Source of the DNA: Bacteroidales bacterium
GTDB lineage: Bacteria; Bacteroidota; Bacteroidia; Bacteroidales; UBA932
DNA length: 31,751 bases
Assembly: GCA_017483985.1 (NCBI GenBank)
Contig: JAFUUB010000002.1
Span: 1-31,751, forward strand
Reading direction: 5' to 3'
Under the pieces are notes generated by a model. It ran no database searches and was not told the DNA's origin. It saw only the letters and a program-made list of their open reading frames with translations. Positions 1-31,751 of the stretch are shown here, in pieces. The position numbers and the translations under genes were made by a program. Each line of letters starts with the position of its first letter. The first letter of the stretch is position 1.

Positions 1-56
1 GCGGTCCACTCACGAGATGGGTGTATTAACGTATTATTTTTTAAAACAGATTAACA

Positions 57-596
57 ATGGCTGTGAAAATTCGTCTTCAGCGCCACGGTAAGAAGAATTT
101 CGCATTCTTCCACATTGTAGTGGCTGACTCTCGCGCCCCGCGCGATGGTCGTTACATCGAGCAGATCGGCTCCTATAACCCGAACACCAACCCCGCCACC
201 ATCGTGCTCAACAGCGAGCGCGCCCTGGCATGGCTCAAGGTCGGTGCCCAGCCGACCCTCACCGCCCGCCGCATCCTCTCCTATGAGGGTGTCCTCCTTC
301 GCCATCACCTCGACGGTGGTATCGCCAAGGGTGCCCTGACCCAGGAGCAGGCCGACCGCAAGTTCGCCGACTGGAAAGAGCATAAGGACGCGAAGGTCGC
401 TGCCAAGGTGCAGGGTCTGAGCCGCGCCGCTGCCGAGAAGGCAAGAGAGGCCGTTGCCGCCGAGGCAAAGGTCAACGAGGCCCGCGCAGAAGCGCTCGCC
501 AAGAAGAAAGCCGAAGCTGAGGAAGCTGCACGCAAGGCCGCCGAAGAGGCTGCCGCCGCTGCCGCCGCCGAGGTTGAAGCCGCACCTGAGGCCTAA
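57..596 (+). CDS. rpsP: 30S ribosomal protein S16
   Basis: Structural protein of the small ribosomal subunit. The first ~85 residues are a standard S16 core: it opens with [14 protein letters not shown], followed by [22 protein letters not shown], split here only by the usual loop, and then the [13 protein letters not shown] region. From about residue 115 the protein continues as a highly charged, alanine-rich predicted helix (repeats of AEA, KKA, EEA) to residue 179, about twice the length of E. coli S16. Such tails are usual in Bacteroidota S16 proteins. The ATG at 57 is the only start that gives the conserved N-terminus. rimM follows after 4 nt, so the two are probably co-transcribed, but trmD and rplS, the usual next genes in proteobacteria, are absent. 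The 56 nt upstream are AT-rich and may hold the promoter, but I see no clear -7 box. Confidence 0.97.
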
Positions 597-600
597 TTCG

Positions 601-1110
601 ATGGCCGAGGCAGGACGCTTGCTGCAGATTGCCCAGGTATTGAAATCGAACGGTACCGAGGGGGAACTCGTATGGGGTTTCCGCGATTTCGGACCGGAAG
701 ACATCAACCCAGAGGAACCGGTGTTCATCGAATTCGATGGACTGCCGGTTCCCTTTTTCATTTCCGCAATCAAGCCGCGGGGCACGTCCAAGGCCCTCGT
801 GCGGCTGGAAGACGTCGACGGCTTCGAGGCGGCGGAGGAACTGGTCGGAAAGGCCGTCCTGGCCGAAGCCGACAGCCTGGAGGATTATGAGGAAGAAGAG
901 GACCTGACCGGCTGGACCCTGCTGCATGCAGACGGGCGCAAGGCCGGCACTGTCACGGACTACGAGGATATTCCCGGCAATCCGTGCATCTATGTGGATA
1001 CGGAAAACGGACAGGAAGTCCTGGTTCCGTTACACGAAGACCTCATCCTGTCCGTCGATCCGGAGCGCCGGGAACTCACGATGGACCTTCCCGACGGCCT
1101 GATTCCGTAA
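601..1110 (+). CDS. rimM: Ribosome maturation factor RimM (16S rRNA processing protein)
   Basis: RimM assists late maturation of the 30S subunit (head domain, near S19). The 169-residue protein has the two family domains. An N-terminal beta-barrel runs from about residue 5 to 90 and includes the GTEGELVW segment in place of the common G-x-x-G-E-V start and the FIEFDGLPVPFFI strand pair. A C-terminal PRC-barrel-like domain runs from about 100 to 165, with LTGWTLLHADGRKAG and VLVPLHEDLILSVD. I place the start at the ATG at 601, 4 nt after the rpsP stop; the open frame extends further upstream but only inside rpsP. The close spacing supports a two-gene operon with rpsP, matching the known rpsP-rimM pairing and the shared target, the 30S subunit. 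The stop lies 3 nt from the stop of the convergent gene, and no terminator hairpin is visible between them. Confidence 0.93.
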   Translation: MAEAGRLLQIAQVLKSNGTEGELVWGFRDFGPEDINPEEPVFIEFDGLPVPFFISAIKPRGTSKALVRLEDVDGFEAAEELVGKAVLAEADSLEDYEEEEDLTGWTLLHADGRKAGTVTDYEDIPGNPCIYVDTENGQEVLVPLHEDLILSVDPERRELTMDLPDGLIP

Positions 1111-1113
1111 ATC

Positions 1114-1833
1114 TTATTCTACCTTTTCAGCTGCGACATAAGGCGCATCGCTCGGAAGTCCGGCGGTGCCGTTCTTCACGTCCTCATAGAAGGCGCCGAT
1201 CGTCGTCTGCATGTACGGAATCAGCCAAATATAACCAATGCCCACGGTTAAAATGCCCAGAAGGAGCCAGCCGATGAAACTCAGGCAAAGCCAGAAATAG
1301 TCAAACTTGTGGCCTTTCATCATCTGGCGGGTCTTTTTCATGGCCTCGATGGCGGAGAGTTCCGGATTGTCCTTCAGGACATACGGGAGTATCGCATAGC
1401 ACAACGCAAGGATGATACCCGGAATCAGGAAGAAGAGGCAGCCCAACATGACCACCATTCCCATCAGGAACATCGCCAGGACATTCCGGCCGTACCGCGG
1501 ACGGAAAGCTTCCCTGAACATATTTTCGGTCACTTTGTCATCCCCATGGCGGTACAGCAGCAGGAAAGAATAGTAGAATCCGATTTCAATCGGAATCAGC
1601 AAAAAGAGGCTGGCCAGGGAACCGAAACACATCAACGGCCAGAGGCCACTGAAGGCAGCCATCGGATTGCCGGGATTCTCCAGCATGGCCTGGGTGTCCG
1701 GCTGGGCGAAAGAAGTGGCTCCCGAAATCGCCAGGGAGATCAGGAGAAAGAGGATCGATGCAATGACAGCCGGTGTCCAATGCCCTTTCAGCGCGGCGAG
1801 GGCCGCATTCTTGTATTCTTGATTCTTGATCAT
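1114..1833 (-). CDS. DUF975-family integral membrane protein
   Basis: A 239-residue polytopic membrane protein of unknown function. It opens with a charged segment (IKNQEYKNAALAALKGHW) typical of DUF975 proteins. Hydrophobic segments follow at roughly residues 22-42, 65-90, 115-145 (LAMFLMGMVVMLGCLFFLIP) and 180-205 (WLCLSFIGWLLLGILTVGIG). The family hallmark, a glycine/proline-containing membrane segment followed by YAILPYVLKDNPELSAIEAMKKTRQMMKGHK, is present at about 145-175, and the protein ends with the conserved PYMQTTIGAFYEDV. It lies 12 nt downstream of the DUF4465 lipoprotein gene on the same strand and has no promoter of its own that I can see, so it is probably its operon partner. 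No catalytic residues can be pointed to. Confidence 0.8.
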   Translation of the reverse strand: MIKNQEYKNAALAALKGHWTPAVIASILFLLISLAISGATSFAQPDTQAMLENPGNPMAAFSGLWPLMCFGSLASLFLLIPIEIGFYYSFLLLYRHGDDKVTENMFREAFRPRYGRNVLAMFLMGMVVMLGCLFFLIPGIILALCYAILPYVLKDNPELSAIEAMKKTRQMMKGHKFDYFWLCLSFIGWLLLGILTVGIGYIWLIPYMQTTIGAFYEDVKNGTAGLPSDAPYVAAEKVE

Positions 1834-16669: not shown

Positions 16670-18682
16670 TCATTCGAAGATTTCTAGGATGGGCCGGCCA
16701 CGCCAGGAGTCCGGCATGTCCAGGTCCAGGTAATGCGCCACGGTCGCGGCAACGTCATATTGGTACATGGGGGCTTCGATCTGATGGCCTTCCTGGATGC
16801 CGCCGCCATAGGCGACGAAAGGCGCATAGATATCGGACGGCAAGGGCTCGCCGTGCCCGGTCCGGTGCCCGCCATGGTCGGAAGTTACGATCAGCAGGGT
16901 ATTCTCGATCATCCCTTCTTCGAAGAGGGTCTGGACAACGCCTTCGATGACCTTGTCCAGCCGGGAGAGCATCGCATAATAGTCGGGGGTGTACCAGCCG
17001 GCGCTGTGGCCGGTATGGTCGGGATAGTCCCAGGTAAAGAGCGCCAGTTCCGGTTCCTTGTCCACGATATATTGCCGGACGAACGCCAGTTCTTCCTCGA
17101 TGCCCTCCTCGGTCCCAGGGAACTGCCGGTGCATCGAGACCGCGGCCGTATCGATCACGTATTTGATGCCGTCCCACTGATACGTGCAGGCGGATTCGGC
17201 ATCCGGCCGGGCCTCGCGGAACAGGGTGAACAGGGTCGGAGGCATGCCGTTCGGTCCGGTCTGGGCCGGGGTGAAGGCGGGCTCCCTGGAATCCCAGGCG
17301 ATATAACCATGGACTTCGGGGCCGGCGCCCATGAGCATCGTGGCCCAGTTGACGGCACTGGAGGAGGGCAGGACGGAGTGTTTGCGGGTCGTCCAGCTGC
17401 CTTCTTCCATCAGGCTGCGCAGGCAGGGCATATCGGCCGAGTCGACGGCAAAGCCGGCCAGGCCGTCGAAGCCCAGGATGATGGCGCGTCTGACAGGTTT
17501 GCGGGGAGCAACGGACGGTTTTCCCGCCAACGTGCCGCGCTGCCCCTCATAATGCTTCAGGAAATCAAGCACACGGATGGGCCACCAGTTCTTGTCGCCG
17601 GCCAGCATCCGGCGTTCGTCCGTAGAAGACTTTTGTCCTGCAGTCACCTGCTCCGTGCGGACTTCTTTCTTCGTGCCTTCGACATGGAAGGTCACCCGGG
17701 CATTCTCGGCCCGCACTTCCAACGTCACCGGAGCCCCCATGATCAGCGGCAGGTTGACATCGCCATGACCGGCCGGGAATCCGCAGCAGACCGGGACGTC
17801 GTAATCCCGCAGATAGCTGCTCAGCATCTCCTCCGCGGTCGCAAAGTCCAGGTCCGCATCGCAGTCGGTGAACTCTCCCAGGATAACGCCGCGGCAGCGG
17901 TCCATCACGCCATTGAGGATCAACATGTTGAAGAGCCGGTCGATGTTGTGCAGACTCTCCTCGACCTCTTCTATGAAAAGGATGATGTCTTCACCGCGGG
18001 TAGCATCCGCTTCCGTCCCGAGGATCGGGGCGAAGGTACAGATGTTGCCGCCGACCAGCGTACCGGTCGCCTTGCCACGGCGGTTGTCCGGATGGGCGGG
18101 GACGACATATTCGGGGATGGTCCCGGTCAGGATGTCACGCAGCAGGGTGCTGCTGGGATCGGTGCCGCCGGATTTGGCAAGGAAGGAGCCCATGGTTCCG
18201 TGGATGCTCATCACGCCCGCACGGGTTTCCATGCCATGCAGGGTGGTGATATCGCTGAAACCGGACAGCCATTTGGGATGGGCCGAAAGCTCTTCCTGAC
18301 CGAGCATGTCCACCAGCCGGATGGTCCCATATCCGCCCCGGTTGCAGATGATCGCCTTGATGGAAGGATCTTCCAGCGCCCAGCGGATGTCGGAGACGCG
18401 TTCCTTGGGCGTCCCGGCATATTTGCCCAGATAATGATTGTCCACATGGGCGCCGATCACCGGGACGAATCCCCAGCCGCGCAGCACTTCGGCGGCGCGG
18501 TCAACATTCTCCCGATCGGTAAAATACGACGGGGAAATCAGGGCGACCGTATCCCCCGGCCGCAGGAAGTCCGGCTCCCGGCAGGACAGGCGGACCGGCT
18601 CCGGAAGGACCTTGTCTCCGGAACAGGCGGCCAGGAAAAAGACGGTAGCGAGCAGCCCGGAACGGAATAACCGACGGAACAT
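16670..18682 (-). CDS. Lipoprotein fusing an S66 LD-carboxypeptidase-like domain to a type I phosphodiesterase domain
   Basis: A single 670-residue reading frame with two enzymes. Residues 1-20 are a lipoprotein signal ending LAAC. Residues ~32-335 are a peptidase S66 (LdcA/MccF) domain: CNRGGYGTIRLVDML (113-127), nucleophile Ser143 in GFSDIT, Glu238/239 in FIEEVEE, and His306 in PAGHGD. That family cuts LD-peptide bonds in muropeptides or related amides. After a ~60-residue linker, residues ~398-670 are an alkaline-phosphatase-superfamily phosphodiesterase: Asp405 in GFDG, nucleophile Ser442 with Asn445 in PSSSAVNW, Asp555/His559 in DYPDHTGH, Asp602/His603 in TSDHGGH, and His610. No stop or shift separates the halves. 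It probably acts at the periplasmic or outer face. It lies 6 nt after the preceding gene and 1 nt before the GH89 gene. Confidence 0.85.
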   Translation of the reverse strand: MFRRLFRSGLLATVFFLAACSGDKVLPEPVRLSCREPDFLRPGDTVALISPSYFTDRENVDRAAEVLRGWGFVPVIGAHVDNHYLGKYAGTPKERVSDIRWALEDPSIKAIICNRGGYGTIRLVDMLGQEELSAHPKWLSGFSDITTLHGMETRAGVMSIHGTMGSFLAKSGGTDPSSTLLRDILTGTIPEYVVPAHPDNRRGKATGTLVGGNICTFAPILGTEADATRGEDIILFIEEVEESLHNIDRLFNMLILNGVMDRCRGVILGEFTDCDADLDFATAEEMLSSYLRDYDVPVCCGFPAGHGDVNLPLIMGAPVTLEVRAENARVTFHVEGTKKEVRTEQVTAGQKSSTDERRMLAGDKNWWPIRVLDFLKHYEGQRGTLAGKPSVAPRKPVRRAIILGFDGLAGFAVDSADMPCLRSLMEEGSWTTRKHSVLPSSSAVNWATMLMGAGPEVHGYIAWDSREPAFTPAQTGPNGMPPTLFTLFREARPDAESACTYQWDGIKYVIDTAAVSMHRQFPGTEEGIEEELAFVRQYIVDKEPELALFTWDYPDHTGHSAGWYTPDYYAMLSRLDKVIEGVVQTLFEEGMIENTLLIVTSDHGGHRTGHGEPLPSDIYAPFVAYGGGIQEGHQIEAPMYQYDVAATVAHYLDLDMPDSWRGRPILEIFE

Positions 18683-23115: not shown

Positions 23116-26100
23116 ATGTGCCGCCCATACAGACACTGCTTCCTGCCCTGCGGAGTTTCCTTTCTCCTCTCGGCTTGGCTGCTCTTTTTAATGGTCCTTC
23201 CCGCCCGGGCGCAGCTGACAGAACCGGTCTACAGCGCACCGACACCCGATGTGGCGACCCTCGGCACCTTCGGGGAAATCCCCGTCAGCCTTTTCACTGG
23301 CACCCCAGACATCTCCGTTCCCATCTATGACATCACCGCTGGAGACTTCTCCTTCCCCATCTCCCTGTCCTATCACCTCGCCGCCGTCAAGCCCAACCTT
23401 CCGCCCGGCAACTACGGCCTCGGATGGGCCCTTTCCACCGACGCATGCATCTCCCGTACCGTACGCGGTGTCCCCGACGAAAAGATGGACAGCCAGGGCA
23501 TAGCCCACGGCTTCTACGGGCACCATGCCAAAATGAAGAACATCACTCCCGCCGCATTCGCCTCCATGACCGCATCAGGGCTCCAGTCCTCTCCCTCCGG
23601 GAATGACTGGTACGAGCTCTCCGCAGACGAGTTCGCATTCTCCTTCAACGGTTACTCCGGAAACTTCTACCTCAATCCCGACGGAGGGTGGACCGTCGTC
23701 TCCGACCAGGACATCCGCGTCGACTTCGATCCTTCTTCCGGCGGTTTCCTCTCCCTCGACGATCTCGCTTCACGCATCCCCGGCATTTCATCATGGGCCA
23801 ACCGCGGCCGCTGCACACGATGGTTCGGCTCCTTTACCCTCATCACCCCAGACGGAACGCGGTATACCTTCGGCGGAGCCGACGCCACTGACTTCAGCAT
23901 CGACTACTATGCACGAAGCTCCGCCGACCTTATAGCTACCGCATGGCATCTCACCCGCATCGTCACGCCACAGGGACGACAGATCACCTTCTCCTATGCC
24001 GCACAAGACCGACCCATCATGGCCGACATCCGCTACGTCTCCGGCAGACGGACCACCTATGGCATCGCCGCCTCTTCTCCGCAGTACCTCGATACCGACA
24101 TCCGCGGACGACGCGCTTACTCCGGCTTCCTCCTCTTTCCCGCAAGACTCCATTCCATCGTCTCCCCCAACGAGACCGTCGAACTCACATACACGCCAGA
24201 TTGGAACTACGGATCGCGCTTCCTCTCCTTCTCCCCGGACGTCCTTTATTGGGACGATACCCAGCAGCGGCTCGGCGGAGTCTTCTCCTTCAACCCGGAC
24301 GACCCGGCCCTGCAGTTCTTCGAACTTATGCCTGGAACTAACACCGGATCCCTCCAATCCAACCGACGCGCCATCGCAGAGGCCCTCAGGCACGACTTCC
24401 TCCACCGCATCTCCATCTACCATGCACAGGAAGGCTATGGAAGGACCATCTATCTCGAATACGAAGGATCCGCTCGCAAACGGCTCGCCGCCCTCAGATG
24501 GAGGGAAGGAAACCCGCCCCTCGAGTACGACTACTTCTTCTTCGGAAACGTCGTATATCCTTTGCTCACAACCCCGGCCGACTCCTCTGACACCTCCCTC
24601 CCGGCCTGGCACTTCCACTACAACACCGAGCACAGCATGCCGCTGGGAACCGTATTCCCGAATACCGACGCATGGGGATACTGGAACGGCGGCGTCAAGT
24701 CTCCCGCCCAGACCTACTACGACAGCGCCAACCCAACTCCTGCCCCCCTCATTTTCGCCACAGCGGAGACCCTGCGCGCCGTCACTTTCCCCACCGGCGG
24801 CTCGGTCAGGCTCGCCTACGAGAGGCACACTTTCTCAAAGGTCGTACCCGACGACCACGGATCTCCCGAAGAGGCCTCTGGATCAGCCGGCGGACTCCGT
24901 ATCAAGGCACTCACCCTCACCGACCGCCTTGGCAACACACTCTCAGAAAAAAGATACCACTACACCGCTGACCTGACGTCTCTTGCCAGCAGCGGCATCT
25001 CCGCCGGCAATCCCACCCACCGGCAGACCTTCGTCCTCCCCGGAGGAGAGTCCGGGATGGTCATCCTCTCAGAATCCGGATTCGCATCCTCTACTACCGG
25101 ATTCAATTCCCCGCACGTCGGATACTCCGCCGTCATAGAAGAAACCAGGGGGCCGGACGGCTCTCCGCTCGGCTTCGTCCGGTACCGCTTCTCCAACTTC
25201 GACACCGATATCCACGGTATCCAGCACCCTGACCACCCCGCCTTCTATGCCTATAATGTCTCCGGTTCCCATGCGCACGTCCCCTTCACCTCCAATTCCG
25301 TCCAGCGCGGACGTCTACTCTCCAAGGAATACTTCTCCCGCGACACACTCCCCGAACGCACACAGACCTGGCACTACGCACTCGTCCGCAACGACTCCCT
25401 CGCCACCGCCACCCAGGAGACCGTCTTCCTATCCTCAGACCCCCTTGCCTTCCTCTCCGCCAACATCGGATGGCTCACCCGGACACACCTGGCAAGCTAT
25501 CTTCCTGTCAAGGAAGAGACTTATGAATACTCCCCCGCCGGGACTGCCTTCTCCACCGTCGCACACGCCTACAACGACCTGCGCCTGACCGTCAGGGATT
25601 CCACCCTGCGCAGCGACGGATCCTTCATCGTACGACATTATTCCTATCCCGACGACCATCCCGACCTATACGATTGGATGATACAGCGGCACATCCTCGA
25701 TGCCCCTGTCTCCATCCGTACAGCCACATCAGGGGGTGTCCACTACCAGACCGCCGAGTATGCTTCCGTGCAGGGGCCCCTCGGGGAACCTGTACCCTAT
25801 CTCGCCGCCTCTGTCTCTGGAAGGGAGGGATCCTCCCTCGTCCGCAACCACTTCCGTGTCCTGACAGCCGACTCCTGGGGCAACCCCACCAACGTCATTC
25901 AGGACGCTCTCCGGCATCGTCTCTATTGGACCGCCGACGGGCAGCGACTCTCCCGCACTACCTCGCATGACCCCGATCACGAGCCCCTGCCCTTCTCCCC
26001 CGTGCAGACACGGTCCATCCCCGGCTCCGGCAGCATCCTCTTCCCCAATCCCGACGGGAGCCAGACGCGCTTCTTTATCTACGATCCCACGGGCAATCTC

Positions 26101-29100
26101 ACCTTCGCCACGCAGCCCAACGGACTCGCAGACCATTATGGCTATGATGCCCTCGGAAGACTCGACTCCGTCATCGAGAACGACATCGCGGACTATTGGA
26201 ACGAAGACCGCGTCATCCGCCGCTACCGATACGTCTACCAGCAGTCCGACGGGGCTTCCCTGCCCGTAAACTCCGCCGGGACAGGGTATGCTGCCCCCGC
26301 CGCAGGACCGGAACCCGTCACAGAGTCCCACGCCCCGGACGGGGCCACCGAACTGTTCCTCCAGAAAGGCAACGTCTATCAGACCCATCTGGAATTCAGG
26401 TCCGCCGCCTATCATGCAGACTCCCTCTCCAACGTCTGCCTTCTCACTGTCCAGGACTCCCTTCAGGCTTTCTTCGACATCCGCAACCTCCGATACTACA
26501 GGAGCACTCCAGTCCTCGACTCTCTGCCCGACAGGCAGATTCCCATCGCCCTGAGGCTCTACCATACCCCGCCCAACGGTCCCGACAGCCTCATCCTGCA
26601 GTTCCCCTTCCTGGTCCAGGGGAGAACCCTCGATGTCTCCGTCGACCAGCGTCAATGGCAGTCGGACAGCGTCATCGTCAGCCTCCCTCCGGGATGGTTC
26701 CGCATCGACTTCCTCGGCATTGATCCCGATACCGAAGTCCAGCCGCTCCTGCGCGGTCGTACCTCCGTCATCATGACAGACTTCCCCTCTTTCGACCTGC
26801 ACATCGAATGCCCTCCGCTCGACCCCGGACCCACCGAACCTGAACCCGAACCCGCCAGTGTCTCCTCATGGAACAACGTCCGTACACTTGTCAGCCGCGA
26901 CGGTTCCGCCTCCACTGGACGCATCTCCATAGACTGGCTTGACGACTTCGGAAGGCCCGAAAGTTCGCAGGCCATCGCCGCCAGCCCCTCCGGAAAGGAT
27001 CTCATCTCCTTCGCTTCTCTCGATGCGCTCCAAAGACCCCTCCGGCAGTGGCTCACAACACCCGTCTCCTCACGCATACGAATCCCGGTCTTTCCGACAG
27101 GGCAGTCCTCCGATCCGCTCCGAGATCCGCTCTACGAACACTTCCTCCCAGACACGCTCGCCGCTCGAGCCCACTCTTACTTCGCAGCCGACGGACGACC
27201 CTTCTCCGAGCAGGACTACGGATCCTCCTCCCTCGACCGGCCGTCACTCACCTACGGACCCGGACAGCAGTGGTACTCCCATGGAAAAGCCGTCCGATCC
27301 GACTACCTCACCAATATCCCCGGAGATCCCCTGCTAGGCTGCCTGCGCTTTACCTGTACGCCGCATCCAACCCGTATCTGGGCCGTCTCCTCACCCGGAT
27401 CCTTCGCGGCCGGGGCCCTGAATGTCACAAAACTCACCGATGAGGATGGGAGGGTGGTCCTCTCCTTCTCCGACCGGCAGGGCAATCCCGTCCTCTCACG
27501 CACACTCATCGTCGAGAACGGCGCGACCCGGTACCTGGACACCTACTTCGTCCATGACGGCTTCGGCAACCTGCTCGCCGTACTGCCGCCACTCGCCTCT
27601 GCGGCTCTCCAGAATGGCGTCATACCCAACGATGCCCTACAGAAGTTCGCCTATCTTTACACGTACGACGCCCTCGACAGACCCGTCCTCAAAAAAATCC
27701 CCGGTGCGGAACCCGTCCGCTATGTCTACGACGCCGCAGACCGTATCATCCTTACACAGGACGGTAACGACAGGAACGCGGGAACCGCTCTCTTCTCCCT
27801 ATACGATGTCTTCGGGAGGCTCTGCGTCACCGGATACTGCTCCAACTCCGTCTCCGACGGCATGCATCTGTCCTCCGTCGTCAAGGCCGTCTATACGGGT
27901 GACGGTCTGCTGGGAGGATATACCGTCCAGGGACTGGAACTCGACAGCCCCAGCCTGCTCACCGTCAACTGGTATGACGACTACGACTTTATCGCCGATT
28001 TCCTCGGGCATCCCCAGGCTGCAGCGGATTCCCTCCTCCTCTTCGGAACGCCCGCCGCCCGCACCGACGCACTCCAGACCGGCAGTTGGGCCGCCGTCAT
28101 CGACCCCACCGGAACAGTACCGCAGGAAGCAGTCTGGTCCGTCATACGATACGACCGGAGAAACCGGCCCGCAAAGACCCTCGCTGCGGACCATCTCGGC
28201 GGATGGACCGTCGAAGACGTCCGATATACCTTCCAAGGAGCGCCCGCCGAACGGCGGGTCGTCCATCACGAACCCTCCGGAAGAGTACGTTCCGAGGACT
28301 ATGCCTATACCTATGATTCCCAGGAACGCCTCCTGTCCGTCACCCATGCACTCGATGCCGGGACGCCCGTCGTTCTTGCCAACAACACCTACGACGACCT
28401 TGGGAGACCTGCCTCAACCGCCCATGCGGGTGCTCCCGCCCTCGCTCAGGCCTACGGCTACAACATCCGATCGCAGCTCACCGGCATCTCCGGCCCCCTT
28501 TTCAGTGAGAGACTCTATTACCAGGAGCCCTCCCCGGCTTCCCCCAATGCCTCCGTCAACTTCGGTGGAGACATCTCATCCATGGAGTGGAAGGCAGCAG
28601 GCATGTCAGACTTCGCGGGATGGGACTTCTCCTACGACTCCATCGGACGCCTTTCAGGTGCCGTATCCCGTTTCGGAACCACACTCACCGGCGACTACGA
28701 CTCAGCCTATTCCTACGACGACCACGGCAACATCCTCTCCATCCGCGAGGAGGGGCTGTCCATACCGCTCAGGACCTTCTCGTACTCCGGCAACCGTCTC
28801 GCAGGAGCATCCTACGACCACAACGGCAACCTCACCGGAGATCCGGCACATGGGCCTAAGTCCATCCGCTACAACCGCCTCAACCTACCGGAGCTCATCC
28901 ACCGCTCCGCCGCAGCCGACACCGTCCGGTACGCTTACGCCGCCGACGGAACCAAACTCCGAGAGACCGTCTCCAAACGCGGCGTACTCCTGCAGCAGAC
29001 AGACTATGCCGGCTCTCGCATCTACCGAGACGGACAGCTCCACTTCATCCTCGGCGACCACGACGCCTACCTCGCCTTCCCAGACTCCCTCACAGGACTG

Positions 29101-30123
29101 CCGCGGGTCCCGGGACGCATCTTCCTCCTGCGCGACCACCTGGGCAGTGTCCGCGTCGCCGCAGACCAGGACGGATCTGCCCGGCAGGTCAACCACTACT
29201 ACCCCTACGGCGGGGACCTCGTCTGGAACGAACCCCTCATCCCCGTCCCGGATACAGCCGTCATCATCATCGACCCCATCCGACCCGCAGAACACGCGCA
29301 TCCGGAAGAGCCCATCGCCGGACAGATACTCCCCGACAACCCCTTCAAGTTCATCGGAAAGGAAAAAGCCGCCGGCAGCGGGTTCTCCCTCTATGACTTC
29401 GGAGCCCGATTCTACACCCCCGCCATACCACGGTGGACCACGCCGGACCCCCTCGCAGAGAAGTACTACCCCATCAGCCCCTATGCCTACTGCGCCGGGA
29501 ATCCGGTGAATCTGGTGGATCCTGATGGGAATAATCCAATCCTTTTAGGAGTGATAGGCGGTGCAGCAGATTTTGGACTGCAGATAGGCGTATATATGTT
29601 GAATGGAGCTTCGTTCAACGATGCATTTAGACAGGTCGATTGGACAAGCGTTGCTGCGTCTGCTGCCGTGGGTGCTGTTAATCCTTCTACAACAGTCCGA
29701 AAAGTTGCTATTGTATTAGCCATTACGGCAATTGATGCTGCGGCGGATTATACCGAAGATAAAGGATGGGAAATTATTGGCCAACAAGGAGAAGACAAGA
29801 AAGATATTGGGGATGCAGCCATTGATTTCGCAACTGGAGTCATTTCTGGCTCTGCTGGAAGTTTGATTCCAGATAAGATCGCAAATGGTTTATCGAAAGA
29901 GGCCTCGAATCGTTCAATCATGGCTCCACTTACTGCAGGTGAAAGAGCAGAAAAGAGAACTATAGCGCACACGGCGAATAACACATATGTAAAAGAAACG
30001 GAAGGGCTTCTTTTAGAGAGTTTCATTCAAGGGACAAGACAAAGCGTTAGAATTGATTTCAATGAAAAAAAAGAAGAGGACGAAAGCAAAGATTATCAAG
30101 TCAAATTTGGAATTTGGCGCTGA
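23116..30123 (+). CDS. Secreted RHS/YD-repeat protein with a variable C-terminal tip (polymorphic-toxin candidate)
   Basis: A 2335-residue RHS protein. Residues ~15-33 are a Sec signal ending PARA. The N-terminal ~800 residues begin PTPDVATLGTFGEIPVSLFTG and form the beta-rich Bacteroidota RHS entry region. YD repeats follow (YGYDALGRLDSV, YTYDALDRPVLK, YVYDAADRIILT). A DUF6443-like section lies around 1255-1400 (IDWLDDFGRPESSQAI, YGPGQQWYSHGK). The RHS core follows at ~2005-2138: LRDHLGSVRVA, FKFIGKEKAAG, YDFGARFYTP, RWTTPDPLAEKYY, ending NPVNLVDPDG. At that motif the DNA changes from about 65% to about 42% GC (60-base samples). The remaining 197 residues are a tip: an Ala/Gly-rich pretoxin-like part, then a ~70-residue charged end of unknown fold. 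By analogy with Rhs toxins, the core would encapsulate and release the tip. Toxicity is inferred. Confidence 0.9.
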   Translation: MCRPYRHCFLPCGVSFLLSAWLLFLMVLPARAQLTEPVYSAPTPDVATLGTFGEIPVSLFTGTPDISVPIYDITAGDFSFPISLSYHLAAVKPNLPPGNYGLGWALSTDACISRTVRGVPDEKMDSQGIAHGFYGHHAKMKNITPAAFASMTASGLQSSPSGNDWYELSADEFAFSFNGYSGNFYLNPDGGWTVVSDQDIRVDFDPSSGGFLSLDDLASRIPGISSWANRGRCTRWFGSFTLITPDGTRYTFGGADATDFSIDYYARSSADLIATAWHLTRIVTPQGRQITFSYAAQDRPIMADIRYVSGRRTTYGIAASSPQYLDTDIRGRRAYSGFLLFPARLHSIVSPNETVELTYTPDWNYGSRFLSFSPDVLYWDDTQQRLGGVFSFNPDDPALQFFELMPGTNTGSLQSNRRAIAEALRHDFLHRISIYHAQEGYGRTIYLEYEGSARKRLAALRWREGNPPLEYDYFFFGNVVYPLLTTPADSSDTSLPAWHFHYNTEHSMPLGTVFPNTDAWGYWNGGVKSPAQTYYDSANPTPAPLIFATAETLRAVTFPTGGSVRLAYERHTFSKVVPDDHGSPEEASGSAGGLRIKALTLTDRLGNTLSEKRYHYTADLTSLASSGISAGNPTHRQTFVLPGGESGMVILSESGFASSTTGFNSPHVGYSAVIEETRGPDGSPLGFVRYRFSNFDTDIHGIQHPDHPAFYAYNVSGSHAHVPFTSNSVQRGRLLSKEYFSRDTLPERTQTWHYALVRNDSLATATQETVFLSSDPLAFLSANIGWLTRTHLASYLPVKEETYEYSPAGTAFSTVAHAYNDLRLTVRDSTLRSDGSFIVRHYSYPDDHPDLYDWMIQRHILDAPVSIRTATSGGVHYQTAEYASVQGPLGEPVPYLAASVSGREGSSLVRNHFRVLTADSWGNPTNVIQDALRHRLYWTADGQRLSRTTSHDPDHEPLPFSPVQTRSIPGSGSILFPNPDGSQTRFFIYDPTGNLTFATQPNGLADHYGYDALGRLDSVIENDIADYWNEDRVIRRYRYVYQQSDGASLPVNSAGTGYAAPAAGPEPVTESHAPDGATELFLQKGNVYQTHLEFRSAAYHADSLSNVCLLTVQDSLQAFFDIRNLRYYRSTPVLDSLPDRQIPIALRLYHTPPNGPDSLILQFPFLVQGRTLDVSVDQRQWQSDSVIVSLPPGWFRIDFLGIDPDTEVQPLLRGRTSVIMTDFPSFDLHIECPPLDPGPTEPEPEPASVSSWNNVRTLVSRDGSASTGRISIDWLDDFGRPESSQAIAASPSGKDLISFASLDALQRPLRQWLTTPVSSRIRIPVFPTGQSSDPLRDPLYEHFLPDTLAARAHSYFAADGRPFSEQDYGSSSLDRPSLTYGPGQQWYSHGKAVRSDYLTNIPGDPLLGCLRFTCTPHPTRIWAVSSPGSFAAGALNVTKLTDEDGRVVLSFSDRQGNPVLSRTLIVENGATRYLDTYFVHDGFGNLLAVLPPLASAALQNGVIPNDALQKFAYLYTYDALDRPVLKKIPGAEPVRYVYDAADRIILTQDGNDRNAGTALFSLYDVFGRLCVTGYCSNSVSDGMHLSSVVKAVYTGDGLLGGYTVQGLELDSPSLLTVNWYDDYDFIADFLGHPQAAADSLLLFGTPAARTDALQTGSWAAVIDPTGTVPQEAVWSVIRYDRRNRPAKTLAADHLGGWTVEDVRYTFQGAPAERRVVHHEPSGRVRSEDYAYTYDSQERLLSVTHALDAGTPVVLANNTYDDLGRPASTAHAGAPALAQAYGYNIRSQLTGISGPLFSERLYYQEPSPASPNASVNFGGDISSMEWKAAGMSDFAGWDFSYDSIGRLSGAVSRFGTTLTGDYDSAYSYDDHGNILSIREEGLSIPLRTFSYSGNRLAGASYDHNGNLTGDPAHGPKSIRYNRLNLPELIHRSAAADTVRYAYAADGTKLRETVSKRGVLLQQTDYAGSRIYRDGQLHFILGDHDAYLAFPDSLTGLPRVPGRIFLLRDHLGSVRVAADQDGSARQVNHYYPYGGDLVWNEPLIPVPDTAVIIIDPIRPAEHAHPEEPIAGQILPDNPFKFIGKEKAAGSGFSLYDFGARFYTPAIPRWTTPDPLAEKYYPISPYAYCAGNPVNLVDPDGNNPILLGVIGGAADFGLQIGVYMLNGASFNDAFRQVDWTSVAASAAVGAVNPSTTVRKVAIVLAITAIDAAADYTEDKGWEIIGQQGEDKKDIGDAAIDFATGVISGSAGSLIPDKIANGLSKEASNRSIMAPLTAGERAEKRTIAHTANNTYVKETEGLLLESFIQGTRQSVRIDFNEKKEEDESKDYQVKFGIWR

Positions 30124-30538
30124 GGACAAGAAAAAATGGACCTCTAAAGATTCTGCTGGATTCATTGGCTTTTTGCTCTTTGTTGGTTTTTTTATAGCAA
30201 TGACCCTCGAATCCCGACGGAGTGTTTCAGTTTACGAAAAAGGGAAACCAGCATATGGTATTATTTCCTCTTTCTCATATGGTGGAAATGGTATCCTTTT
30301 TTCCGATATTCAGTATGAAGTCAATGGCATTAGTTTCCACACTTCTATCTCTCACGAAAATAAACATATGATTGGCGATACGATTATGGTTATTTATGAT
30401 TCGACGAATGCGAAAAAAAGTGGAATCCCTGTCGATGAGTCCGGCCATGTATTTACAAGGTGGGATGCTTCTTTTGATAATTATTTAAGAGAACTGAAAG
30501 ACGAGCAGAAAGAAAATCGTGAAATAAGGCTCCGATAG
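30062..30538 (+). CDS. Small membrane protein overlapping the RHS tip; candidate immunity protein
   Basis: A 158-residue protein whose ATG (30062) lies 62 nt inside the RHS 3' end in another frame. Residues 1-30 are strongly basic (KKKKRTKAK). One transmembrane helix follows at ~32-49 (AGFIGFLLFVGFFIAMTL), then a beta-rich domain (PAYGIISSFSYGGNGILFSDI, GISFHTSI, IGDTIMVIYDSTNAKKSGIP). The domain resembles DUF3592-type domains by pattern only. It is as AT-rich as the RHS tip (about 40% GC in a 60-base sample). Overlap with the tip, shared composition and the terminator right behind it suggest that the two moved together as a tip/immunity cassette. Immunity is inferred from position; no homology supports it. 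An upstream TTG at 30053 would add three residues. The stop is TAG. Confidence 0.75.
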   Translation: MKKKKRTKAKIIKSNLEFGAEDKKKWTSKDSAGFIGFLLFVGFFIAMTLESRRSVSVYEKGKPAYGIISSFSYGGNGILFSDIQYEVNGISFHTSISHENKHMIGDTIMVIYDSTNAKKSGIPVDESGHVFTRWDASFDNYLRELKDEQKENREIRLR

Positions 30539-30579
30539 AATAGACCTCCATCGATAGTAATATTCCTTTTCATTTTACT

Positions 30580-30616
30580 CCCGGCCGCACATTACTGTGG
30601 GGCCGGGTTTTCTTTT
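30580..30616 (+). terminator. Intrinsic terminator closing the RHS module
   Basis: CCCGGCC (30580-30586) pairs with GGCCGGG (30601-30607), and an inner CACA/TGTG adds pairs. TTTTCTTTT follows. It is a strong terminator 42 nt after the candidate immunity gene, separating the active RHS module from the remnant beyond it. Confidence 0.85.
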
Positions 30617-30805
30617 ATTCAGCCCTATTTAAAATACCCCTTCGGTGGCAAGGAAATTGCAGGCCAGAGGGCTGGCGCAAACGCGCTTGCGGGCACCCTG
30701 GCGGCAGCTGCCGGCCATCCCTACCGGGACTTCGGAGCTAGATGGTTCAACCCCGCAACTATTTCCGACTGGCCAGACACAAAAACGGGCTCTCACAGCG
30801 CCTAG
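30617..30805 (+). pseudogene. Orphan RHS-core fragment
   Basis: The frame beginning near 30617 reads QPYLKYPFGGKEIAGQRAG, then ANALAGTLAAAAGHPYRDFG and ARWFNPATISDWPDTKTGS, stopping at TAG 30803-30805. The FGGKE and DFGARWFNP motifs are the RHS-associated core signature, but there is no start, no preceding YD repeat and no DPxG ending. It is not a copy of the main gene's core, which reads FKFIGKEKAAG and DFGARFYTP, so it comes from another RHS gene. GC is higher than in the cassette before it. It is best explained as the 3' piece of a displaced or recombined RHS gene. Confidence 0.6.
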
Positions 30806-30841
30806 GTGTCAGGGGTGGGATTATAATCCGGGGCCTGACAC
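30806..30841. repeat. Nested inverted repeat at the end of the RHS fragment
   Basis: Outer arms GTGTCAGG (30806-30813) and CCTGACAC (30834-30841) enclose a second perfect palindrome, GGATTATAATCC (30818-30829). It starts directly after the stop codon of the RHS fragment. There is no T-tract, so it is not an obvious terminator; a recombination or end-of-element site is possible. Downstream, 30842-30967 holds no recognisable gene, only short frames with stops. Confidence 0.5.
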
Positions 30842-30967
30842 GGAATCTAGTTTCTACGCCCTGGCGGTGTCAGTGCAGCCGGAACTTTATTCGATCGGAT
30901 GGTGCCATCTTGTCTCATCCTTTTGGCACAAGCTCCGGTTATCTTAGCAGTCATAAATGGCTGCAAG

Positions 30968-31369
30968 ATGACAAACGAAATGCCTTATAACGCCTGGGTG
31001 GCTCCCCCTCCGACAGAGATTCCGAACTATGTTTGGAGCAAGAAATATGATCCAAAACCACTGAAAATCAAGTCCTCTAAGCTCATCGAAATCAAAGTCG
31101 AAGAGTTTTACCATCCTTCGAAAGAAGTTGCTCTGAAGGCCGCAAAAATGGCTGTCAGAGGGAAATCGGGGATGTATTTCGGCTCAATGGAAAATGGAAA
31201 AGGGTTTCATGTCTACCGGAATGGGAAGGTGTTCAGAGACATTGGGTGGAATCTCGATGAAAAAAAGTGGCTCGAAAGGAAAAGTTATATAAAACCTGAC
31301 TGCAGTTATACTCCCCTGACAAGAGATCCGGACCGGCTTGAAATGGTTGATGAAGGAGTTAGAATATGA
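30968..31369 (+). CDS. Hypothetical protein downstream of the RHS fragment
   Basis: A 133-residue protein that I do not recognise. It is charged and soluble: a proline-rich start (WVAPPPTEIPNYVWSKKYDP), a basic mixed region (KLIEIKVEEFYHPSKEVALK), then GMYFGSMENGKGFHVYRNGK followed by VFRDIGWNLDEKKW. The frame is open to an ATG at 30899, which would prepend a hydrophobic stretch ending INGC that resembles a lipobox but has no basic residues. I prefer the ATG at 30968. It is in the same frame as the orphan RHS fragment, although several stops lie between. It could be the displaced tip of that RHS gene (GFHVYRNGK resembles the His-containing strand of some toxin nucleases), its immunity protein, or unrelated. 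Function unknown. Confidence 0.5.
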   Translation: MTNEMPYNAWVAPPPTEIPNYVWSKKYDPKPLKIKSSKLIEIKVEEFYHPSKEVALKAAKMAVRGKSGMYFGSMENGKGFHVYRNGKVFRDIGWNLDEKKWLERKSYIKPDCSYTPLTRDPDRLEMVDEGVRI

Positions 31370-31400
31370 TGAAATCACGCCCTTTTCACGCCCCTCCTAT

Positions 31401-31435
31401 AAAAAGAAAAGGCACCTACATTGCTGTAAGTGCCT
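31401..31435 (-). terminator. Intrinsic terminator directly after tRNA-Ala
   Basis: On the minus strand AGGCACTTACA (31435-31425), loop GCAA, TGTAGGTGCCT (31420-31410): an 11-bp stem with one G-U pair, followed by TTTCTTTTT (31409-31401). It lies 13 nt beyond the tRNA-Ala 3' end, where a 23S leader would be expected in a linked rRNA operon. Confidence 0.85.
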
Positions 31436-31448
31436 CATTCTCAGGTTG

Positions 31449-31521
31449 TGGAGGTAGTCGGATTCGAACCGGCGACCCCATGCTTGCAAAGCATGTGCTC
31501 TACCAGCTGAGCTATACCCCC
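31449..31521 (-). tRNA. tRNA-Ala (anticodon TGC)
   Basis: Minus-strand 73-nt cloverleaf: acceptor GGGGGTA with TACCTCC plus discriminator A (one G-U pair), D-arm GCTC-AGCTGGTA-GAGC, anticodon arm CATGC-TTTGCAA-GCATG with anticodon TGC, variable GGGTC, T-arm GCCGG-TTCGAAT-CCGAC. CCA is not encoded. The second T-stem pair is a C-A mismatch. It follows tRNA-Ile in the 16S spacer position. Confidence 0.96.
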
Positions 31522-31554
31522 AAACAAAAAAAGCCGGGCTGGTAGTCCGGCTTT
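31522..31554 (-). terminator. Terminator-like hairpin between tRNA-Ile and tRNA-Ala
   Basis: On the minus strand AAAGCCGG (31554-31547), 9-nt loop, CCGGCTTT (31537-31530), then TTTTGTTT (31529-31522) ending at the first base of tRNA-Ala. It has all the marks of an intrinsic terminator, but no separate promoter for tRNA-Ala fits in the remaining space. It may be leaky, or it may be a processing stem. Confidence 0.65.
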
Positions 31555-31555
31555 G

Positions 31556-31629
31556 TAGGCCCTGGCAGAGTTGAACTGCCGACCTCTACATTATCAGTGT
31601 AGCGCTCTAACCAACTGAGCTAAGAGCCT
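31556..31629 (-). tRNA. tRNA-Ile (anticodon GAT)
   Basis: Minus-strand 74-nt cloverleaf: acceptor AGGCTCT with AGGGCCT plus discriminator A (one T-G pair), D-arm GCTC-AGTTGGTTA-GAGC, anticodon arm CTACA-CTGATAA-TGTAG with anticodon GAT, variable AGGTC, T-arm GGCAG-TTCAACT-CTGCC fully paired. CCA is not encoded. It is in the usual place after 16S rRNA. Confidence 0.96.
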
Positions 31630-31713
31630 ATATAATAATGAAAGACTCGTACAAGAGGCAGTTGCCTCTTTGCCTTGCAGACCGCTGAGCGTCGCGTCAA
31701 GATCCACGCTCCA
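31630..31713 (-). other. 16S-tRNA spacer with two processing-type hairpins
   Basis: Just behind the 16S 3' end, GAGCGT and ACGCTC (31711-31687) form a short stem. Further on, AAGAGGCA/TGCCTCTT (31670-31653) is a tight 8-bp stem. Neither has a T-tract, so they look like RNA-processing structures and not terminators. Confidence 0.5.
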
Positions 31714-31751
31714 AAAAGGAGGTGTTCCAGCCACACCTTCCGGTACGGCTA
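31714..31751 (-). rRNA. 16S ribosomal RNA, 3' end (partial)
   Basis: The minus strand reads AAGGTGTGGCTGGAACACCT followed by CCTTTTT, the 3' end of a Bacteroidota 16S gene with the anti-Shine-Dalgarno core CACCTCC. Only about 38 nt lie in the window; the exact mature end is uncertain by a few bases. It is followed by tRNA-Ile and tRNA-Ala as in a normal rrn spacer. Confidence 0.9.

Follow-up and report, generated by a model that had tools for sequence, protein, structure and literature searches.

A free-standing 16S-tRNA-Ile-tRNA-Ala unit in a Bacteroidales genome and the probable ancestral split of an rRNA operon in its family

The stretch of DNA analyzed here (the window) comprises 31,751 nucleotides; the protein database places a protein of the window on a contig of the same length, so it is probably an entire contig, with its right end an assembly break within a 16S rRNA gene. 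The 16S gene is cut by this end, and its 3' end, with the anti-Shine-Dalgarno sequence ...GGCTGGAACACCTCCTTT, occupies positions 31715 to 31751 on the minus strand. It matches positions 1497 to 1533 of Rfam model RF00177 with 30.6 bits (E 1.5e-6), under the gathering score of 50 because just 37 nt of 16S are present. Farther along the minus strand, an 85-nt trailer, or 16S-tRNA-Ile spacer (31630 to 31714, delimited by the adjoining features), leads to tRNA-Ile(GAU) (31555 to 31629, anticodon GAT; 70.4 bits with Rfam RF00005) and tRNA-Ala(UGC) (31448 to 31521, anticodon TGC; 68.1 bits with Rfam). ARAGORN located both tRNAs as well, and the two programs confirm the first-pass annotation, which had read a minus-strand 16S 3' end, tRNA-Ile, and tRNA-Ala.

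The unit is closed on the same strand by an intrinsic terminator (31401 to 31436), a 12-pair stem with a 4-nt loop (31436 to 31409) followed by TTCTTTTTAT; relatives have a terminator at the same position. It had been described as an 11-bp hairpin 13 nt past tRNA-Ala, correct to within two bases. The predicted fold reaches -23.3 kcal/mol versus -9.6 for shuffled sequences (z -5.05), and 0 of 200 shuffles were as good; a simple terminator scan of 30000 to 31751 gave 3 sites versus 2.1 expected, which alone is weak evidence. This predicted hairpin and T tract supply the terminator of its own by which an independent 16S-tRNA unit is recognized. A second terminator-like hairpin, missing from the first-pass account, lies between tRNA-Ile and tRNA-Ala (31520 to 31556, minus strand) and occupies the 33 nt separating both tRNAs. 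Its fold of -12.1 kcal/mol (z -2.6) was equaled by 3 of 200 shuffles, and the simple scan did not list it. Such a hairpin may lower the yield of tRNA-Ala, uncoupling it from 16S and tRNA-Ile.

At gathering scores, Rfam found no LSU or 5S rRNA across all 31,751 bases, and none even at E values up to 1 within 29500 to 31751; matches to IS102, Atu_C9, and Plastid-ycf2 were disregarded as under their gathering scores. The lack of a 23S gene noted at first reading thus extends over the rest of the window (31.4 kb). A 23S gene would lie a few hundred bases from tRNA-Ala in a classic linked operon, and none is there; nor does one occur within 1,500 bp past the 16S 3' end, the distance that defines unlinked rRNA genes as quoted in a passage of PMC8178347.

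Beyond the terminator, positions 1 to 31400 encode rpsP, dapD, aspartokinase, isocitrate dehydrogenase (IDH), citrate synthase, and an RHS protein (Rfam; Pfam/NCBIfam). The RHS gene (23116 to 30123, plus strand) encodes 2335 aa with DUF6443 and an RHS core (Pfam/NCBIfam) and shows a strong C-over-G skew; short ORFs follow it, three without a Pfam match. On the minus strand, 16670 to 18682 encode a 670-aa protein in which an LD-carboxypeptidase (S66) and a type I phosphodiesterase/sulfatase-like domain are joined. The rpsP block (window positions 1 to 1500) is about 31 kb from tRNA-Ala, versus about 3.7 kb in a relative (G176 contig C25, 3700 to 7300; L218), and its order relative to the rRNA unit is reversed between the two, as after an inversion or insertion beside the unit. 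Among the relatives compared, the DNA past the terminator is variable, and it may be locally rearranged. Plasmid transfer was considered and set aside, with matches of only 42 to 75 bases in 9 records.

The family and order samples were centered on RUG352 (G001), the nearest genome found, which gave the best genome-contig match to the IDH of the window (74% amino acid identity) and which we take to be a rumen genome. The sampled family is, we suspect, UBA932/Candidatus Cryptobacteroides. Among the matches listed for the genus of G130, to which G001 also belongs, G181 came closest to a 357-base query from the window that runs from the 16S end to beyond the terminator (88% identity over query bases 1 to 304). 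No LSU gene occurs within 1.5 kb of 61 of 61 draft-genome 16S 3' ends for which 800 nt or more of downstream sequence is available, the window included, a count that excludes the single-contig genomes, which do carry linked copies, and that describes units picked mostly by likeness to the 16S-Ile-Ala query, not all rRNA copies. These ends came from 75 sources (L087 to L116, L152 to L179, L327 to L342, and the window; one further end was too short), and linked copies are undercounted in draft genomes because repeated linked operons would collapse or stay unbinned. Rfam likewise detected no LSU in the fetched flanks (1.3 to 1.5 kb) of 20 of 20 family loci. One apparently linked operon (G139 C122) was set aside as probably a foreign contig, its 16S being 73% and its 23S 68% like those of G078, with the tRNA order Ala-Ile.

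The rest of the order presents a different picture, in a control that is small (198 genomes, each pattern matching just 20) and whose genomes outside the family draw might include family members. Among 19 23S starts outside the draw, 18 have a visible upstream region, and all 18 lie behind 16S and/or spacer tRNAs. Of 28 16S 3' ends outside the draw, 23 have a 23S gene downstream (one soon entering masked bases) and 3 have none; for the remaining 2, the contig stops 802 and 304 nt farther on. The first reading, that unlinked rRNA genes are unusual for Bacteroidales, holds when these 18 linked 23S starts are set against the family draft 16S ends lacking 23S. Two of the three exceptions belong to G434, a 1.2-Mb genome in which no LSU was found, and one belongs to G362, apparently a second and independent unlinked case in the order. 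A locus in G537 was rejected as an unlinked copy, since its sequence passes from the beginning of the 23S gene into masked N bases, which makes it a linked one. At the G362 locus (L257, contig C5), 16S and tRNA-Ile are followed by a terminator-like hairpin (by eye), and the 23S gene is on another contig without an adjoining 16S.

Within the family, 53 of the 58 Ile-Ala pairs examined, the window included (62 sources, 4 without a pair), have a predicted terminator no more than 20 nt from tRNA-Ala, versus 67 of 1,500 random stretches from the same sources; two of the five pairs missing it have a second tRNA-Ala downstream. As judged by eye, the hairpin sequences vary between species while the terminator persists, which speaks for selection on termination. 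An intervening hairpin between tRNA-Ile and tRNA-Ala is present in 13 of the 58 pairs: 10 (the window and 9 related loci) share a GCCGG...CCGGC form, those of L157 and L167 are strong with a different sequence, and that of L135 is weak. No promoter pattern was found between the internal hairpin and tRNA-Ala in L088 and L162, both of which have long spacers. Ten further family 16S ends carry no tRNA and have a terminator starting 53 to 107 nt past the 16S end, and three have tRNA-Ala alone before the terminator. The locus L334 (G033 C100) has a reversed and enlarged set, with tRNA-Ala, tRNA-Ile, and tRNA-Leu behind 16S.

Three relatives assembled as single contigs place these units in whole genomes. 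In G078 (2.38 Mb), and likewise in G011 (2.66 Mb), a single 16S-Ile-Ala unit lacking 23S and a single 23S-5S unit lacking 16S coexist with two linked 16S-23S-5S operons that have no spacer tRNAs. In G004 (2.23 Mb) there are also two linked operons free of tRNAs, and the Ile-Ala pair has no 16S with it. Two of the three genomes are thus mixed, and G004 has only linked operons; linked copies make up 6 of the 8 16S copies found, the 23S genes having been sought genome-wide and the 16S genes via rRNA and tRNA matches and fetched regions only. The orphan 16S gene is full length in both mixed genomes, identical to the linked copies in G078 (1524/1524) and different at 8 positions in G011, and the orphan 23S gene differs from its linked copies at 0 positions in G078 and 3 to 4 positions in G011. 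A tRNA-Ile pattern (up to 3 mismatches) matched once each in G078, G011, G004, and G241, 3 times in G165, and 4 times in the linked control G475, and the sole match in G078, G011, and G241 sits behind the orphan 16S end. Since the linked operons of G078 and G011 lack spacer tRNAs, the 16S-Ile-Ala unit holds the only tRNA-Ile(GAU) gene found there. The contig ends of G241, a five-contig genome from the genus sample of the window, carry the 5' parts of two 16S genes, a single exit of the 16S 3'-Ile-Ala type, a single 23S leader that has a flank of its own, and two complete 23S-5S genes cut 57 nt upstream. This pattern fits one orphan pair and one linked operon; it may also reflect a missing contig.

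Each half has promoter sequences of its own in the relatives. By eye, the orphan 16S and the orphan 23S of G078 and G011 are preceded by TA(T/C)CTTTGCAGCCCGTTT, mostly with TTTG about 19 nt before it, and the linked 16S genes of the same genomes by TACCTTTGCACTCCCC instead. The arrangement of TTTG, about 19 nt, and TAnnTTTG is presumably the promoter type of the Bacteroidetes primary sigma factor. In the genus sample (200 genomes searched, 125 with a match, best 30 loci taken), 30 of 30 16S 5' ends match the pattern, 29 in the form TA[TC]CTTTGC, with L309 unconvincing; 45 of 3,000 random windows match, the control covering 400 bases with a strict TTTG and the test 500 bases with TNTG, although all 30 matches begin with TTTG. 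Upstream of the genus 23S genes, no 16S end was found within 600 nt in 29 loci (of L180 to L209); CTTTGCA[GC] precedes 14 of the 29, and the 8 viewed among the remaining 15 show, as judged by eye, the same promoter with another last base.

Across the family, 57 of 149 genomes had a 23S match, and 30 loci, one per genome and without the linked G078 and G004 copies, were examined. The promoter pattern is present at 25 of these 23S starts (that of L359 weak by eye); of the other five, one is a linked G011 copy with 16S upstream, three have less than 300 nt upstream, and one (L366) has no promoter. The 23S 5' flanks are common to different species, 26 of 35 falling into one single-linkage group. 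The promoter and first leader bases of the 23S genes resemble those of the orphan 16S, a likeness that would follow from a deletion in which a 16S promoter became fused to the spacer end.

The two relatives with orphan pairs also have leader and trailer sequences that match within each unit. Paired with its own trailer, the orphan 16S leader reaches -42.0 kcal/mol in both G078 and G011, versus -18.5 and -24.6 kcal/mol, respectively, with the linked trailer; linked leaders have their best partners in the linked trailers of the same genome. In G078 and G011, own leader-trailer pairs beat 300 of 300 shuffles whether the unit is orphan or linked; in G004 they beat 298 of 300. Across genomes, the G011 orphan leader with the G078 orphan trailer (-50.4) is better than with its own, and the reverse pairing is weak (-24.9). 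Self-matched stems are what an independently processed pre-16S would show, and processing of this kind is predicted for the orphan units.

The position of the halves relative to each other is conserved as well. Among the matches listed, at least 21 genomes have both on one contig, always with the 16S side upstream of the 23S on the same strand: G035, G050, G032, G012, G053, G068, G052, G141, G087, G049, G134, G098, G130, G112, G181, G170, G160, G078, G011, and, with a tRNA-less 16S, G145 and G080. The contigs of G052, G141, and G160 start between 16S and tRNA-Ile, leaving 16S itself outside, that of G160 ends in the 23S leader, and that of G112 ends just past it. The constant order is not a clean sign test, as rRNA genes tend to follow replication and contigs end at rRNA repeats. 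In many other genomes the halves are on separate contigs. The gap between the halves ranges from 7.4 kb to 109 kb, and 17 of the 21 gaps were compared gene by gene (Pfam names taken from G012). The recurrent families are an OPT transporter (15 gaps), an M20/PepT-like peptidase (14), a DUF4922-SpoIID protein (11), and, with 10 gaps for each, a glycosyltransferase, an MFS permease, and a NamZ N-acetylmuramidase. The order is constant: glycosyltransferase, DUF4922-SpoIID, MFS, and NamZ, with OPT and the peptidase toward the 23S in either orientation.

The genomes nearest the window (G181, G170, and G160) share only OPT and the peptidase, and the two gaps behind a tRNA-less 16S have none of the listed families in common. 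The gap of G012 (L389, contig C12) encodes NamZ, DUF4922-SpoIID, an M20 peptidase, and Zip and OPT transporters, together with a tRNA_SAD domain (alanyl/threonyl-tRNA editing type) and a C10 peptidase. The gap block was rejected as the downstream DNA of the window, where representatives of the gene clusters found in 3 or more gaps had a single weak tblastn match (23% identity). The conserved order and strand and the recurrent gap genes suggest that the operon split once, long ago, around a block of peptide and muropeptide genes that was later shuffled.

The feature in the window is thus very probably the 3' part of a free-standing 16S-Ile-Ala unit, half of an ancestrally split operon whose 23S-5S half lies separately. 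The first-pass annotation had instead proposed a rearrangement beside the RHS locus, that is, a recent local event through which this strain alone would have had a normal operon divided. The RHS gene does adjoin the unit, and the downstream DNA, including the distance to the rpsP block, does vary among relatives; however, the same unit end recurs family-wide with other flanks and with terminators of other sequence, so that the break is neither recent nor an accident of the RHS locus, and the shared 23S 5' flanks, together with the promoters and stems belonging to each half, speak against such an event too. We regard such an event as very unlikely and abandon the earlier proposal.

It is similarly improbable that the 16S of the window is a pseudogene or remnant serving just as a leader for the spacer tRNAs. 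The window contains only a short piece of the gene, and the position of the sole tRNA-Ile(GAU) match behind orphan 16S ends would suit such a role, yet G078 and G011 have full-length orphan 16S genes that differ little or not at all from the linked copies and are flanked by processing stems, and 16S ends free of tRNAs are closed by terminators in the same family. An assembly or binning artefact, a chimera at the rRNA repeat in which the contig ends, has the slimmest chance of all, since many assemblies and two single-contig genomes contain the same unit closed by a terminator at that position, which makes a misjoin at 31400 to 31450 unlikely, and since an IDH 99 to 100% identical to that of the window is encoded on other contigs, of up to 31,605 bases for one 100% match and, longer than the window, 61,850 bases for a 99% match (P0010).

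Under the preferred reading of an ancestrally split operon, the break would have occurred in an ancestor within this large uncultured Bacteroidales family, leaving the 23S-5S half downstream or elsewhere. Transcription would run from a promoter before 16S through 16S, tRNA-Ile, and tRNA-Ala and stop at 31436 to 31401, the leader-trailer stem would free the pre-16S of the 16S-tRNA half, and 23S-5S would be made elsewhere from a similar promoter of the Bacteroidetes type (TTTG, about 19 nt, TAnnTTTG). The 16S 5' part and the 23S half belonging to the window would presumably be like those of its relatives, and promoter use, termination, and processing are all predicted from sequence. More tentatively, and with considerable doubt, the split could be an old, maintained regulatory design around a peptide/muropeptide recycling block, in which like promoters and leaders would match 30S to 50S RNA and the Ile/Ala terminator in the subgroup of the window would tune the spacer tRNAs separately from 16S.

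It was already known that rRNA genes can be unlinked or mixed (Brewer et al. 2020, via citing papers; Ahn et al. 2020, PMC7761764; PMC8178347). As in the passages of PMC7761764 that describe them, 16S and 23S are more than 1.5 kb apart here, and linked and unlinked copies coexist in some genomes. Those passages stress symbionts and soil and sediment taxa, whereas the carrier here is a Bacteroidales family whose split unit keeps Ile-Ala with 16S; in the relatives, each half comes with promoters and terminators, often with a conserved gene block between. The same source cites Helicobacter pylori, an unrelated lineage in which pre-16S and pre-23S-5S are likewise separately transcribed and matured, and mentions a role of RNase III and antisense RNA there. 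Cellulosilyticum (Lachnospiraceae) from the horse gut, treated in part of PMC8178347, is also a gut bacterium with linked and unlinked copies and differs in phylum; in that account, unlinked reads in horse feces were assigned only to Cellulosilyticum or Anaerocolumna, and the statement that unlinked rRNA genes were undetected in the human gut is repeated. Neither PMC7761764 nor PMC8178347 contains the word stem "bacteroid" in its main text. The open-access literature yielded no published Bacteroidales case of unlinked rRNA genes, most subscription journals and supplements being out of reach; within this scope, unlinked rRNA genes were known before, and a Bacteroidales family as their carrier is apparently new.

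Compared with the classic Bacteroidales operon seen in the order genomes (16S-Ile-Ala-23S), the unit keeps the same 16S-Ile-Ala order and strand, and halves on one contig keep the operon order; the differences are the terminator past tRNA-Ala, the 7 to 109 kb of other DNA, and the promoter before 23S. Because 16S-tRNA and 23S-5S lie apart, methods that expect adjacent 16S and 23S genes would miss such copies, and split Bacteroidales copies would be undercounted by 16S-ITS-23S amplicon methods. Cells that transcribe the two halves apart would offer a natural test of 16S:23S balance, and the family, in which mixed genomes occur together with linked copies that lack tRNAs and with 16S genes standing alone, would offer a natural test of rRNA operon breakage.
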